64,000 bases of DNA from Halobacteriovoraceae bacterium (GCA_002711995.1 PASN01000001.1:145018-209017), one strand, 5' to 3'. Shown: positions 8,661-21,378, numbered from the stretch's first letter. A program made the numbers and translations. Notes: generated by a model not told the origin, from the sequence alone.

Positions 8661-8816
8661 ATGGATAAAAGTGATTTGAAATTAATTAAGACTTTCTCGA
8701 ATGACTTTGGTGAAGTTTATGAAGTTGATCTCTCTTCAGCACTCGGCCAAGATTTTGACTATGATGAAGACTTAATGGCCTATGCCACTCACCCCTGCGA
8801 CCCTAGTTTAACGTGA
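8661..8816 (+). CDS. small acidic peptide, 51 aa (possible precursor peptide)
   Basis: An ATG at 8661 opens a 51-codon frame ending TGA at 8814-8816. The product is acidic in its middle (GQDFDYDEDLMAY) and ends ATHPCDPSLT with a single Cys. It overlaps the 3' end of the convergent gene by nine bases. It has no clear ribosome site; a CATAAAAT box lies just upstream. Its leader-plus-Cys-core look, 0.7 kb from a PqqD-like gene, makes a RiPP precursor possible, but a chance ORF cannot be excluded. Confidence 0.35.
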   Translation: MDKSDLKLIKTFSNDFGEVYEVDLSSALGQDFDYDEDLMAYATHPCDPSLT

Positions 8817-9446
8817 CCCCTTTAGTTTCTTCTCTTTCATAAAACAATCTTTAACGCTTTCACACTTATTTTTTACAGCATCCAGATTTTCAAGACGCTT
8901 CTTTAAAGACTTTTCTTCCACCGCCTCCACCTTCTTAAGCTTCTCAACGGATTTCACTTCTTTTGTTTTTCTCTCTATTGTGGTGAGAAGAAGGGGTATG
9001 CTATTCATAGGCATAGGAACCTCTAGACCTACCATATAGCGGTAATAATCTTTAAAATAGTCAGTTAGGGAAAACTTCCCACCAATATAGCTCTCAGTCT
9101 TCTCATCCAATTTCAAAATACAAAAGCCTGCTAAATACTTTGTTTCACTCGTTTCCAAGACTTCTGTGCACCCATAATTTTTGTTTTCTCCTTTAACAAT
9201 GAGCTTTGAAAGTTTCTTTTGAGGTATTATTTCTGCGATAAAATTTTCTTTATAAAAGTAGTACTTCTTAAGAGACTTTGAAAAGAGGATGTCAAAGGAG
9301 CCCACTTTTATTTCGAAGCCTTCAGGAGAAAAGACCATCACCTTCTCCAAGTCCTTCTTTTTTTCATAATAAGTAAGCTTAATCACTTGGGAGAAGCATG
9401 GAGAGGATAGAAGAATCAGAAGAAAAACCTTAATTATTGGCGCCAT
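8808..9446 (-). CDS. secreted hypothetical protein with charged C-terminal helix, 212 aa
   Basis: MAPIIKVFLLILLSSPCFSQ is a signal peptide. The mature N-terminal two thirds looks beta-rich (alternating KLTYYEKKK, EIKVGSFDILF), the last 60 residues a charged helix. Cysteines occur near 110, 125, 194 and 200. No family is recognised. The start codon is ATG at 9446; the upstream region is shared divergently with the PqqD-like gene. Confidence 0.6.
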   Translation of the reverse strand: MAPIIKVFLLILLSSPCFSQVIKLTYYEKKKDLEKVMVFSPEGFEIKVGSFDILFSKSLKKYYFYKENFIAEIIPQKKLSKLIVKGENKNYGCTEVLETSETKYLAGFCILKLDEKTESYIGGKFSLTDYFKDYYRYMVGLEVPMPMNSIPLLLTTIERKTKEVKSVEKLKKVEAVEEKSLKKRLENLDAVKNKCESVKDCFMKEKKLKGSR

Positions 9447-9525
9447 TAGAACCTACTTTTAATTTTTCCTAACCTCTTAAAAGGAACCCATAATAAGTAG
9501 AGTGAATTCATGATATCATTAGTTC

Positions 9526-9813
9526 ATGACGAACAAAAAGTTTTTATTAAATGACAACATAGTGCTCTCCTCTTTTGAAGATGGAACCCACGTTTGCGAT
9601 GTTAACCCTGAAGGTAAAGTCTTACAATTAAGTGGAGATGTATCCTTGCTTGTTAAACTTTTAAAAGATGAGCAAACGATTGAAGAACTTGTTTTAAAAC
9701 TAAGCGAGCAATCTGAATCGTTTAAACAAAACAATTCAAAGAAGGCTACTGTAAGCGAGGCCTTGAACTTTTTACTCGACCGTCATATTATAAGAGTCAC
9801 TACTGCTGAATGA
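9526..9813 (+). CDS. PqqD-like / RiPP recognition element (RRE) small protein
   Basis: The 95 residues follow the PqqD plan: three beta strands (NIVLSSFEDGTHVCDVNPEGKV in outline), an 'L-x-LSGDVSLLVKLL' helix, a DEQTIEELVLKL winged-helix segment and a C-terminal V-SEALNFLLDRHII helix. RREs bind leader peptides and deliver them to tailoring enzymes; related proteins also occur in non-RiPP loci. The gene overlaps the glycosyltransferase by four bases (ATGA), so the two are co-translated. Its promoter region contains the palindrome ATGATATCAT, partly overlapping a possible operator. The family call is from pattern only. Confidence 0.6.
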   Translation: MTNKKFLLNDNIVLSSFEDGTHVCDVNPEGKVLQLSGDVSLLVKLLKDEQTIEELVLKLSEQSESFKQNNSKKATVSEALNFLLDRHIIRVTTAE

Positions 9814-10940
9814 AACGAGCTTTTTCCAACACTGTCTCAATTGTAATTCCCGCAAGGAACGCCTCCTTATCTATTTCCCAATGCCTTCACTCGATCGAAA
9901 AACAACCCCATTCTTTCGACAAAGTAATTGTTGTGGACAATGTCTCAAGAGATGAAACTTTATCAATTGCCCAAAAGTTTGATTTTGTTAAAACTGTGAA
10001 ATGCTCTGAAGTGGGAAGATCACACGCAAGAAACTGTGGTCTAAAGCACTGCAATTCAGAGTATGTTTTGTTTCTTGACGCGGACATTGTTCTGGATGAC
10101 AAATTCACATCTCATTTAGAGGAGTGGATCAAAGAAGACGTGGATTGTCTCTCAGGCGCCATAAGACCTTTGAGTTCAAACCAGTTCATAGACAAGTATC
10201 GCTATAAATACAAGGCTTGGGCAAGTAGAGAAGGTTTTTTGAGTTTACAAAAAGGTGAATCAATCGCTCCTGTTGTCAACAGCGCATGCTGCTTATATAA
10301 AACCCGCCTCATAGAACAAATAGGAGGTTTTGATACAAGACTGAACAGAAGTGAAGACAGGGATCTTTCACGAAGACTTTTTTACCACGGGGGAATACTT
10401 AGTTTTGATACAAACCTCAAGGCCTATGGCCTATCAACATATACAATAGCCTCCTACCTTATCAGGTCTTTTAACTATGGCAGACAAAACAAAATATATA
10501 ATCACTTGTGGGGTGACACAGAGGGGTTTCCAAGTTTATCAAGCTACCTAGAGTTTTACTCTTACACCAAAAGTGTCCTCTACCCCATCTATCTTTTACT
10601 CAACCAAATCTTTAAGTTAACCGGCATATTTTTTTCTAGCAATGATTTAAAGGAACTGGAAGAAAAAGAAAAGCTTAAAAACCTCTATTCAAATTCACAC
10701 ATTATAAAATTTGGTTTTTTCAGGGACTCCAAACTCATCCATCTTTCAGGGAAGTGGAGAATGTACTTTATAAACAAATGTGTTCTCTTTGTAAGCCTAA
10801 ATCAAGAGAAGTTAAAACTTGGTCATAATGAAAGCAACCTCTTCATGCAACTTTTATCTTCGAAAAAAGTCACCTCTCAAAATAAAGAGATCGTGAACAA
10901 ACTAATCCAGAATGGTGTATATAATGAAAGAGCTGATTAA
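9810..10940 (+). CDS. glycosyltransferase family 2
   Basis: The N-terminal GT-A domain is clear: VSIVIPARNASLS (start), VIVVDNVSRDETL, the nucleotide-sugar metal motif FLDADIVLDD near residues 90-99 and a later NRSEDRDLSRRLF (ED acceptor motif). It is cytoplasmic or membrane-associated, with no signal peptide. The C-terminal 120 residues are not assigned. GT2 enzymes in peptide clusters (SunS type) glycosylate Cys or Ser; here the acceptor is unknown. It sits between an RRE-like gene and a cupin gene with overlaps on both sides. Confidence 0.85.
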   Translation: MKRAFSNTVSIVIPARNASLSISQCLHSIEKQPHSFDKVIVVDNVSRDETLSIAQKFDFVKTVKCSEVGRSHARNCGLKHCNSEYVLFLDADIVLDDKFTSHLEEWIKEDVDCLSGAIRPLSSNQFIDKYRYKYKAWASREGFLSLQKGESIAPVVNSACCLYKTRLIEQIGGFDTRLNRSEDRDLSRRLFYHGGILSFDTNLKAYGLSTYTIASYLIRSFNYGRQNKIYNHLWGDTEGFPSLSSYLEFYSYTKSVLYPIYLLLNQIFKLTGIFFSSNDLKELEEKEKLKNLYSNSHIIKFGFFRDSKLIHLSGKWRMYFINKCVLFVSLNQEKLKLGHNESNLFMQLLSSKKVTSQNKEIVNKLIQNGVYNERAD

Positions 10941-11877
10941 CTCCTTATTTGATGTTTATGAGAGCCACCGGCCAATTCTTTTAAAAGGCATGAACTCCTT
11001 CGGACTGTTTAAACTTTCAAGCATTAAGGAGAGCTATGGACAAAAAAGCGTTCTTCTAAAAAAAGAATACTTCGAATTTTTGACACAAATTCTTCCTCAT
11101 TTAAAATCAACACAGGATTACAAACAGAAACGCAGAGAAGTTTTTGAAGAGTATGCTCAAAGAGAGACATATGCAAAAGTTTATGATGTCTTGGAAAATA
11201 ATATTAGCTCTACTTTTGGTCACAGTGACTACATCAACACAAATTTTTCCAACATAGTGGACAATGACCTCTTAAAAACACTGTTAAAGGCAAACTATTT
11301 AAAGGTACAGAACAATATTTTTGACTCTAGAATCTTCATCGCTCCAAAGAGCTTTCACGCAAACCTTCACTTTGATTGGCGATCAAGAGTAAACATATTC
11401 TTTCAAATCGAGGGAGAAAAAGAATTTAGGCTTTACTCTCCAGATCATTCTGTCAAGCTAGGCGCGTTTTTAAACCTTGGCAAGCGTGACCACACAGTCA
11501 CGCCGGAGATAAGCGCAACACTTTCACCTGGAGATGTCTTGATATTTCCTCAGTTTTACTGGCACGAAGCAATCTGTCACACACCATGCGTCTCTGCTTC
11601 TATCCGTCTTCTTTCAAATAAACGATTTGATGATTGGCTTCACAATAATGTTCCGGACTGGCGTGTGGCCGATCTATGGTCTAGGGGGTCTCTTCCCGAA
11701 TCCTCGACCTCAAAGACCCCTCTCTCAAGAAGTGCCCTACACGAATCCGAGGGGGAAATAAAAAACTTGTTAGAGAGAAATCCAAGTGGATTTAAGTACA
11801 CAAGTGAGGAACAACTTTTAAGACTGGCATACATGCATGGAATAAATCTAGGAGAAAAATTTCCTTTCAGATATTAA
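10912..11877 (+). CDS. JmjC/cupin-8-like Fe(II) dioxygenase candidate
   Basis: The core has the JmjC/cupin arrangement: FHANLHFDW near residue 150 (HxD metal ligands), NIFFQIEGEKEFRLYSP, a LSPGDVLIFPQFYWHEA stretch near 205-217 (second His) and VSASIRLL. These enzymes hydroxylate protein or peptide residues using 2-oxoglutarate. The gene overlaps the glycosyltransferase 3' end; start may be ATG 10912 or ATG 10924. It converges with the PLP gene, overlapping it by 11 bp. Substrate is not evident. Confidence 0.7.
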   Translation: MVYIMKELINSLFDVYESHRPILLKGMNSFGLFKLSSIKESYGQKSVLLKKEYFEFLTQILPHLKSTQDYKQKRREVFEEYAQRETYAKVYDVLENNISSTFGHSDYINTNFSNIVDNDLLKTLLKANYLKVQNNIFDSRIFIAPKSFHANLHFDWRSRVNIFFQIEGEKEFRLYSPDHSVKLGAFLNLGKRDHTVTPEISATLSPGDVLIFPQFYWHEAICHTPCVSASIRLLSNKRFDDWLHNNVPDWRVADLWSRGSLPESSTSKTPLSRSALHESEGEIKNLLERNPSGFKYTSEEQLLRLAYMHGINLGEKFPFRY

Positions 11878-12895
11878 CTAGCTCTTTTTCCTTACTTAAA
11901 AACAGTTTCAGCACAAAAATAAACTTTTCAACCTCTTCAATGTCCGTTGTTGACGATGGGCAGATTCTTGCCACGTGCTGATTTGTCACACGATTAAAAA
12001 AGAACTCCGCATTCCAAAAGTTAAAACCAAAGCTTCTCAAAGATCGAATATTAAGTTTGTAGCTTCTTCCAAGGTTCAGAAACAGCTTTTGTCTTTCTAT
12101 GTTCTCTTCTTTGCCTCCTTCAGCGAAAGGCAGAAAGAAATACTTAGAGTGAAGAGGGAGAGAAATGCTACCCACTTCCTGAGCAATCTGATTAGCATTG
12201 CGAACAATGTTTCCGACTCGGTTCAGGTTGTCTTGATATTTGCTCTCATTAAAAAGCTCTGGAGTTATATCGCATAAGCTAGGAGCTGCGGAGAATAGTC
12301 GATAGTACTCCCTAAAAAGCTCTATCAACTGCTCATCCCCTTTTATTAAAAGAGAGCCTAAAGAGCCGTACTCCTCCCCTCCCATATCAAGCTTTGAAAT
12401 TGATCTTATCTGAAAAAGGATATCGCAAGATATTTCATCAACCAGTTTTTTAAAAACAGGCTCGTTTAGGGCCCAACAGGTGGAGTCAATAACTACACAG
12501 CGCCACTTCTCACTCAATATCGCCTTCAGGTTCTCCTTAGAGAATGACCCACTACAGATCCACAAATCTTGTCCTTGGGCCGCCATTTTTATGCCATAGA
12601 GATTCATAGCTTCTACGGAACCAACATAGGCTGGAGTGTGTGAAACAATTTCGCTAACTTGAAGCTTGTTTTTGAGGTAATGCAAGCAAAGGGTGATTCC
12701 TATTTGCCCAGAGTTGAGTAGGAGGCCATATGAGGGCAAAGTTGATCCGGCGGTGAAGAATTTTAAATTTTCTTTGTCGATCGTGATATCGAGGTCTTCT
12801 CGTTTATAGCTAAACTTTACCTTTAACTGCCCAAAGGAAACTTCTTCATTTGGCCTATAGTGGGTAAGCCGCCGCCCAACTTCCATTTTGCGCAT
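11867..12895 (-). CDS. PLP-dependent fold-type I aminotransferase-like enzyme
   Basis: The protein has a glycine-rich cofactor segment (TAGSTLPSYGLLLNSGQIGIT), an aromatic HTPAYVGSVEAM, VVIDSTCWAL (Asp for the pyridine nitrogen) and SISKLDMGGEEYG, where the lysine likely binds PLP. About 340 residues is slightly short for aminotransferases. ATG 12895 or ATG 12886 is the likely start; neither has a strong ribosome site. The idh terminator lies only 11 bases upstream, so promoter placement is unusual. It is convergent with, and overlaps, the JmjC gene. Confidence 0.6.
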   Translation of the reverse strand: MRKMEVGRRLTHYRPNEEVSFGQLKVKFSYKREDLDITIDKENLKFFTAGSTLPSYGLLLNSGQIGITLCLHYLKNKLQVSEIVSHTPAYVGSVEAMNLYGIKMAAQGQDLWICSGSFSKENLKAILSEKWRCVVIDSTCWALNEPVFKKLVDEISCDILFQIRSISKLDMGGEEYGSLGSLLIKGDEQLIELFREYYRLFSAAPSLCDITPELFNESKYQDNLNRVGNIVRNANQIAQEVGSISLPLHSKYFFLPFAEGGKEENIERQKLFLNLGRSYKLNIRSLRSFGFNFWNAEFFFNRVTNQHVARICPSSTTDIEEVEKFIFVLKLFLSKEKELVNI

Positions 12896-12905
12896 TAGGA
12901 CATCC

Positions 12906-12936
12906 AAAAAGTGGCCGCCAACATAGTGTTGGCGGC
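12906..12936 (-). terminator. rho-independent terminator of icd
   Basis: GCCGCCAACA (12914-12923) pairs with TGTTGGCGGC (12927-12936) around a 3-nt loop; on the minus strand the stem is followed by CACTTTTTGG. It lies 8 bases after the icd stop and directly before the PLP gene. Confidence 0.9.
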
Positions 12937-20162: not shown

Positions 20163-20345
20163 TTGGATATACTTAAGAAATCTGCGGTCATTGGAGCATA
20201 TATCGGTCTTTTGTCTTGGATTCTAATTATAGCTTTCAAAACCACATCCTTAAACAATGAGAGCGTTTTGCTGAACTACGCAATCATTGCTGTTTTCGCA
20301 TTAATTCTATTCAAGTTAAATAAAGAGCACTCTGGCAATGCTTGA
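20163..20345 (+). CDS. small two-helix membrane protein, 60 aa
   Basis: The start is a TTG at 20163 with AAGGAG placed seven bases upstream. The product has two hydrophobic helices (SAVIGAYIGLLSWILIIAF in outline and LLNYAIIAVFALILF). It overlaps the KamA-like gene start by eight bases, suggesting translational coupling. No family recognised. Confidence 0.6.
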   Translation: MDILKKSAVIGAYIGLLSWILIIAFKTTSLNNESVLLNYAIIAVFALILFKLNKEHSGNA

Positions 20346-21378
20346 AGCTAATTGGCGTGACTCCTTTAGAGACGCCTTTAAAAGCTCCAGAGAGCTGTTT
20401 CACTTCCTTGATCTTCAAGAGAAGTTTAATGATTCTTCCTACCCTGTGTTTGTGCCTAAGAGATTGGCCGTGAACATTAAAACTCAAGGCAAAGACTCGC
20501 CACTGTGGAGACAGTTCGTCCCATCTAATGAAGAGTTCTCAGAATCAGAAGTCAGTGGGCTTTACGATCCTATAGGTGATGAAATTCATTCGAAAGACAA
20601 CGGAATCATCCACAGGTATAAAAACAGACTTCTCTTCTCCCCCACAACTGTTTGTCCCGTTAACTGTAGATACTGTTTTAGAAAAAACGAACTTGCCCAA
20701 AGCGACGAGGTTTTAAAAGGCAAACTCTCTGCCCTTGTAACCTACCTTGATTCACACCCAGAAGTGCAGGAGGTAATCCTCACAGGTGGTGATCCTTTAA
20801 TAGCTTCAAATAAAAAGCTTAAAGAGATTTTCCAGGCCCTGGAAGGTAGGGTTCCCTTTGTGAGAATACACACCCGCACGCCAATGGTGCTTCCAGAAAG
20901 AATAGACGAAGGACTTCTTGAGTTATTTAGGTGGACTTCACAGAGCTTCACAATATTTAGCATTGCCATCCATGCAAACCATAAGGACGAATTTGATAAA
21001 TTTGTAACCGACAAAATTAAAATGCTAAAGCAAACAGGCGCTCAGCTTCTCTCCCAAAGTGTTCTACTCAAAGGCGTTAATGACTCAGTAAAGGATCTCA
21101 CAGATTTGTATCTTCGATTTGCCAGCTTGGATATTAGGCCCTACTACTTGCACCACCCAGACAGAGTGAAAGGAGCAATGAACTTTTATATTCCCCTAGA
21201 GGTTGGTAGAGCTATATACATGAAGCTTAGAGATGAACTTCCAGGCTGGGCCATACCTCACTATATAATTGATCCGGAAAATGGTCAGGGCAAAACTTTG
21301 GCCTATAATCCAGAGTCAATAAAATTTGGCGGTCAACTATTAGACAGATTTGGCCAAACAAGTGAAATCTTTAGGTAA
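20338..21378 (+). CDS. KamA/EpmB-family radical SAM protein
   Basis: TTVCPVNCRYCFRK near residue 103 is the CxxxCxxC cluster motif in the form used by lysine 2,3-aminomutases, followed by VQEVILTGGDPL, RIHTRTPMVLP and a C-terminal IRPYYLHHPDRVKGA and YNPE. At 346 residues it matches EpmB (beta-lysine formation for EF-P modification) better than clostridial KamA. No epmA or efp lies in view, so the exact role is open. Confidence 0.88.
   Translation: MLEANWRDSFRDAFKSSRELFHFLDLQEKFNDSSYPVFVPKRLAVNIKTQGKDSPLWRQFVPSNEEFSESEVSGLYDPIGDEIHSKDNGIIHRYKNRLLFSPTTVCPVNCRYCFRKNELAQSDEVLKGKLSALVTYLDSHPEVQEVILTGGDPLIASNKKLKEIFQALEGRVPFVRIHTRTPMVLPERIDEGLLELFRWTSQSFTIFSIAIHANHKDEFDKFVTDKIKMLKQTGAQLLSQSVLLKGVNDSVKDLTDLYLRFASLDIRPYYLHHPDRVKGAMNFYIPLEVGRAIYMKLRDELPGWAIPHYIIDPENGQGKTLAYNPESIKFGGQLLDRFGQTSEIFR

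Follow-up and report, generated by a model that had tools for sequence, protein, structure and literature searches.

The described systems closest to the locus reported here are those of lasso peptides, PQQ, lanthipeptides, mycofactocin and daptides. Daptides are aminotransferase-containing RiPPs, with a PLP enzyme plus an RRE in the cluster, and mycofactocin combines an RRE-like protein (MftB) with a family 2 glycosyltransferase (GT2; MftF). A large survey has noted fusions of RREs to GT2, carbamoyltransferase and JmjC proteins in aggregate (PMC12710340), and associations of this kind are therefore known; in the part of that survey open to view, the same enzyme families are tied to RREs, and the gene set, PLP family and leader treated below are not described. 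The literature search, outside which subscription papers and preprints largely lay, found no description of this gene combination, PLP family or leader.

The locus lies in a 64,000-nt stretch of DNA, here called the window, taken from one strand of the 3.7-Mb genome of a Halobacteriovoraceae bacterium (GCA_002711995.1 PASN01000001.1:145018-209017). We place it, presumably correctly, in the Bdellovibrionota because of the family shared in the genome search. A sequence-only reading had proposed an undescribed peptide-modification pathway, with an RRE-like protein serving a glycosyltransferase, a 2-oxoglutarate hydroxylase and an aminotransferase-like enzyme. The ORF coordinates, tandem overlaps and convergent PLP gene that it gave were all confirmed by our ORF check. 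The features are as follows.

8661-8816, + strand: precursor peptide gene, 51 aa, MDKSDLKLIKTFSNDFGEVYEVDLSSALGQDFDYDEDLMAYATHPCDPSLT; top of 633 short ORFs with a profile from other clusters
8706-8732, + strand: leader motif FGEVYEVDL, candidate RRE recognition sequence (putative binding); aligns with FGx[IV]xxx[DE]L of other precursors
8769-8786, + strand: DLMAYA, end of the leader and candidate cleavage signal; DLxAYA has matches in the genome
8787-8813, + strand: candidate core THPCDPSLT (putative boundary), the variable C-terminal tail past the common motif
9526-9813, + strand: discrete RRE (PqqD-like), 95 aa; profile and fold matches
9810-10940, + strand: family 2 glycosyltransferase, 376 aa; PF00535, E = 6e-27; relatives lie beside RREs
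10077-10085 and 10350-10367, + strand: GT2 motifs DxD (as DAD) and SEDRDL
10912-11877, + strand: JmjC/cupin 2-oxoglutarate oxygenase, up to 321 aa; Cupin_8 8e-11, JmjC_2 2e-9
11368-11376 and 11560-11571, + strand: JmjC motifs, HFD and the distal His in WHEA
11867-12907, - strand: PLP enzyme of fold-type I, its family not named in Pfam; predicted fold and motif RSISKLD (12386-12406)
12914-12936, - strand: terminator-like hairpin between icd and the PLP gene; 10-pair stem, then a T run on the - strand

The RRE and GT2 genes overlap by ATGA, the JmjC frame starts within the end of the GT2 gene (at 10912, or at the in-frame ATG at 10924), and the PLP gene converges on the JmjC gene with an overlap of 11 bases; this gene probably starts not at the TTG but at an ATG 12-21 bases further in. 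The acidic 51-aa ORF (12 D/E, 3 K/R, one Cys) does lie 0.7 kb upstream as had been claimed, with an unrelated gene on the opposite strand (8808-9446), left unmentioned in that claim, sitting between it and the RRE gene. Downstream of the PLP gene, past the hairpin, is the gene for a monomeric isocitrate dehydrogenase (icd); the remaining scanned neighbours are housekeeping or unassigned genes, and no exporter or protease adjoins the gene set. Nor does any radical SAM or cyclodehydratase gene, in line with the earlier reading; a radical SAM protein lies 8 kb downstream of the set (20338-21378). Consensus promoters are rarer in the window than in shuffles and were not used as evidence.

The 95-aa protein is an RRE, and would bind the leader of its precursor. 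Taken alone it scores 13.1 bits against Pfam PqqD, under the cut-off of 23.4; a PDB sequence search with it gave nothing useful and a single-sequence search gave no relative in 58 other genomes, so that the profile alone worked. A profile built from the RREs of 14 other clusters ranks it first among the window ORFs (33.9 bits, E = 6e-10), and, with E allowed up to 1, Pfam PqqD is matched by seven of the 15 RRE members, the best at 5e-10. Against PDB chains the 15-protein profile gives E = 3e-7 for TbiB1, a lasso RRE, 0.006 for a lasso PqqD-family chaperone and 0.02 for TfuB1. A match of the profile to Tako8 was dismissed, as no single stretch of it passes. The AlphaFold model (pLDDT 87.5) shows strands then helices in RRE order, that is, a winged fold of three strands followed by three helices which matches solved RREs; among PDB folds, TbiB1 and TfuB1 match it best, and PqqD (5sxy) is in the top ten. 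The RRE-like identity proposed earlier is thus borne out by profile and by fold, and in size, strand and helix order, profile and fold the protein resembles the lasso B1 proteins (TbiB1, TfuB1) and PqqD.

The genes around it do not follow any of these pathways, and the earlier view that this is not a standard RiPP type stands for lasso peptides, lanthipeptides and mycofactocin alike. The genes adjoining the set include neither the asparagine-synthetase-like cyclase and B2 protease of lasso peptides nor the LanB/LanC, LanM or LanKC proteins of lanthipeptides, and the set is without PqqA and PqqE. It has in common with mycofactocin the pairing of an RRE-type protein with a GT2, but the window GT2 scores 81 bits against MftF, under the cut-off of 280, and the radical SAM protein MftC and MftA are absent, with JmjC and PLP proteins present instead. 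Compared with daptides, the PLP enzyme matches no Pfam aminotransferase family and no decarboxylase or methyltransferase was seen.

Both plus-strand enzymes belong to the families to which they had been assigned. The glycosyltransferase has its PF00535 match and intact catalytic motifs. The oxygenase scores over the cut-off of the Cupin_8 and JmjC_2 profiles and retains the HxD...H triad, from which hydroxylation is predicted; the PDB sequences nearest to it are NO66/MINA.

The PLP protein has no match in Pfam, NCBIfam or PDB sequences, and none of 12 members of its family matches a Pfam PLP family, known aminotransferase families included. With the sequence families silent, we assign it because of its predicted fold and its motif. 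The AlphaFold model (pLDDT 84.7) most resembles CalE6 and the cystathionine gamma-lyases, with TM values of about 0.5-0.6, the best fold match being in the Cys/Met-metabolism PLP group. The earlier description as an aminotransferase-like PLP enzyme is thus to be corrected in one point: in fold the model comes nearest to the cystathionine/methionine gamma-lyase group and not specifically to an aminotransferase. Its homologues (20-36% identity) have in common a Tyr, an Arg, SGQ, an Asp, the Lys motif RS-x-x-KLD and a C-terminal Arg, which would correspond to the phosphate, pyridine-N, Schiff-base and carboxylate contacts typical of fold-type I. Of the 369 genomes of the phylum, 17 have a member according to the family profile, two only marginally, and 16 of the 17 belong to the family of the window; a scan of genome contigs with a three-row PLP alignment returned only two genomes, both already known.

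Nearly every RRE cluster contains one or two short ORFs that consist of a leader, an acidic stretch and a short variable tail, and the leader consensus resembles D[FY]Gxx[FV]Gx[IV]xx[VI][DE][LI]. A profile was trained on the peptides of other clusters, with the window left out, and used to rank the 633 short ORFs of the window. The 51-aa ORF comes first with 8.2 bits, the next scoring 4.5; with three added training peptides the values are 10.7 and 2.1 bits. The true precursor is ranked first by the leave-one-out profile in 12 of 14 clusters, and two further loci in the same genome, outside the training set, score 16.6-16.9 bits. Such short peptides yield low leave-one-out scores (8-11 bits), and the peptide of G001, the same-genus genome described below, was not recovered by the profile; the argument is based on the rank and on the independent rediscoveries, not on the bit scores. 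The DNA pattern for DLxAYA has five matches in the 3.7-Mb genome. Two fall in long genes that are unrelated; the other three are in short ORFs, each of them a precursor beside an RRE, one belonging to a peptide-GT2-JmjC-RRE operon and one to a LanB/LanC cluster. In 60 Markov-shuffled windows, with 51,536 short ORFs in all, a combined leader-plus-AYA expression had 2 matches, a count that is descriptive only since the expression was composed after the peptides were known. None of 19 peptides matched an NCBIfam precursor family. Given a leader family that occurs beside RREs in 14 clusters and at independent loci outside the training set, we accept the suggestion that the 51-aa ORF is the precursor; the conserved short ORF expected near homologues is present, with a related leader plan, and shows the conserved leader and variable core of a RiPP precursor.

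The profile finds RREs at five places in the same genome, and Pfam PqqD adds one more; five of the genome's RRE loci have precursor-like peptides with related leaders and at least four enzyme sets. A sister operon of peptide, GT2, JmjC and RRE lies 20 kb past the end of the window (contig C8, about 229405-231702; L104 8406-10703); its peptide, MNKIYKAGDKILGEIEVLNLDDVAEECEGYSQDLYAYAALLDGAGPYGDGTDTSVNL, is directly upstream of GT2-JmjC-RRE, and the PLP gene is absent. On contig C19 (L103 7153-12604) is a class I lanthipeptide cluster with LanB (PF04738), LanC (PF05147), a JmjC protein and a discrete RRE, whose precursor MAKSKKTESAGKTFEFGSLGRILIENLEEVESSNFEYLNPKTVEDLTDLNAYAIQSGCSACSASGLAFCC (peptide ..FEFGSLGRILIENL..DLNAYAIQSGCSACSASGLAFCC) follows the leader plan of the window peptide. 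This cluster shares with the window the JmjC, the RRE and a precursor with FGxxGRIxxxxL and DLNAYA, but it has LanB, LanC and a Cys-rich core where the window has GT2 and PLP enzymes. Contig C10 (L046 5136-9688) encodes an RRE, a GT2, a DUF4135 (LanM dehydratase-like) protein and a peptide that is Ser/Thr/Cys-rich after DELSAYA; additional membrane-like ORFs lie downstream. On contig C4 (L105 7036-8439) an RRE is fused to a precursor-like tail (..SPELAAYGFTTLTATNSSSYCDST) in a 137-aa ORF beside a YcaO protein.

Relatives were also found in other genomes, including metagenome-assembled ones (a Bdellovibrionales MAG, C1_MAG_00045). A 4.8-kb contig of G001 carries, on one strand, an RRE (90 aa), a GT2 (314 aa), a 59-aa ORF containing PAYAICVSSTAC, a PLP protein (367 aa) and two last proteins that by eye resemble 2-oxoglutarate (2OG) oxygenases, with no clear Pfam match; JmjC is absent from this short contig. 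Another genome, G260, has a peptide (57 aa), RRE, GT2 and 2OG oxygenase in a row, followed by a JmjC protein, 30% identical to that of the window, and another 2OG oxygenase. Its PLP gene is split across the ends of contigs C103 and C112, which are probably adjacent since each carries one half of the PLP homologue. The GT2 relatives are 36-37% identical to the window GT2 over about 190 aa. The gene set thus recurs in relatives, namely in G001 and G260, although some relatives lack either JmjC or PLP. Tailoring enzymes are encoded with a precursor and conserved together in G001, G260 and the sister operon.

More widely, the PLP family occurs with RREs at L032-L039 and L068-L070, mostly also with a carbamoyltransferase (PF02543/PF16861), a GT4 and a second PLP-like protein which by eye resembles fold-III PLP decarboxylases. 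Many precursors at these loci end in an Ala-Arg-rich tail (e.g. AAAAART, SAAARS, ASARRRRRD). Some other RRE loci showed further features. L113 (7758-8273) and L115 (7423-7944) show a fusion of the leader motif with a domain that by eye appears to be of Hint/intein type (AAACFHPSTEIVMSDGT..), adjoining RRE, carbamoyltransferase and JmjC genes. RREs at L088, L090, L092-L095 and L100 lie beside 144-169 aa proteins with a near-N-terminal Y.FGGI.EF.L..IE..(I/L)L; these proteins may be long precursors, or else protein substrates for the same group of RREs. At L114 (8196-13282) the genes for an RRE and for a GT2 of the same subfamily (E = 2e-55) are divergent; the locus also encodes two radical-SAM-like proteins and a 66-aa peptide containing YFGGLTIVSLNDI.

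We consider it very probable that the locus makes a RiPP of an undescribed type, the predicted product being a short peptide that is both glycosylated and hydroxylated, and that it is part of a radiation, across the whole family, of RRE clusters whose leaders are related. The separate 95-aa RRE would recognise the 51-aa precursor by its leader, in the region of FGEVYEVDL, and present the C-terminal core, a short segment that follows DLMAYA (approximately THPCDPSLT), to the JmjC/cupin oxygenase and the GT2. The oxygenase may hydroxylate a core residue and the GT2 attach a sugar to a core side chain, perhaps at the new hydroxyl; the PLP enzyme would make a further change to the core or supply a modified building block, and the leader would be cut near AYA. 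Since the genes overlap and their catalytic motifs are intact, RRE-delivered hydroxylation and glycosylation is the most economical reading. The pathway put forward earlier is supported in outline, its individual reactions being predictions; of the outcomes fixed beforehand as counting against it, namely no RRE match, no conservation of gene order and no short ORF near homologues, none occurred. Two finer assignments were considered. A link of the PLP enzyme to the core Cys (both are found in the window, G001 and G260 and both are missing in the sister operon) was not adopted because many PLP-containing carbamoyltransferase clusters have Cys-free cores, and a link of JmjC to a core His was rejected, the G260 core being without His.

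JmjC_2 enzymes such as NO66/MINA hydroxylate ribosomal proteins, and the match of the window oxygenase to these, with the 51-aa ORF 0.7 kb off and behind an opposite-strand gene, would suit a set in which RRE, GT2 and JmjC modify a larger cellular protein (surface or ribosomal), the RRE being a docking adaptor and the ORF unrelated. We think this improbable, as the ORF tops the window's short ORFs with an independently trained profile and a peptide immediately precedes GT2-JmjC-RRE in the sister operon and RRE-GT2 in G260. It is unlikely, though somewhat less so, that the RiPP set comprises precursor, RRE, GT2 and JmjC only and that the PLP gene serves unrelated metabolism, for example with icd. 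The gene is on the other strand beside icd and is missing from the sister operon; against this, the terminator-like hairpin divides it from icd, its relatives in G001 and G260 are in RRE-GT2 clusters, and the wider family is found in RRE-carbamoyltransferase clusters.

There is very little chance, in our view, that the locus is what is left of a lasso or lanthipeptide cluster, decayed or captured, and no longer makes a product. Such an origin would account for an RRE and leader like those of lasso and lanthipeptide clusters and for the absent cyclase and dehydratase genes, but all the reading frames are open and overlapping with their catalytic motifs kept, and a similar set in G001 and G260, at 30-37% identity, argues for long-term selection.

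The gene set of the window, read as a pathway to a modified peptide, is possibly a RiPP class of its own. On a broader reading we are evenly balanced: that in this Bdellovibrionota-type lineage a single leader plan of modular build (FGx[IV]xxx[DE]L ... DLxAYA) and a family of discrete RREs would be a common chassis for diverse chemistries, namely GT2 and JmjC (with or without PLP), LanB/LanC with JmjC, LanM-like with GT2, YcaO, and carbamoyltransferase with PLP, and that the window locus would be the first example of a new class of RiPPs, peptides that are hydroxylated and glycosylated and whose synthesis involves a PLP enzyme from a new family. These clusters tie a PLP family that lacks a Pfam name, GT2s and JmjC oxygenases to defined short peptides, so that their chemistry is directly testable by co-expression. 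The result points to an unexplored, RiPP-rich lineage, and a common leader would help to bring enzymes from different RiPP classes together on a single peptide.
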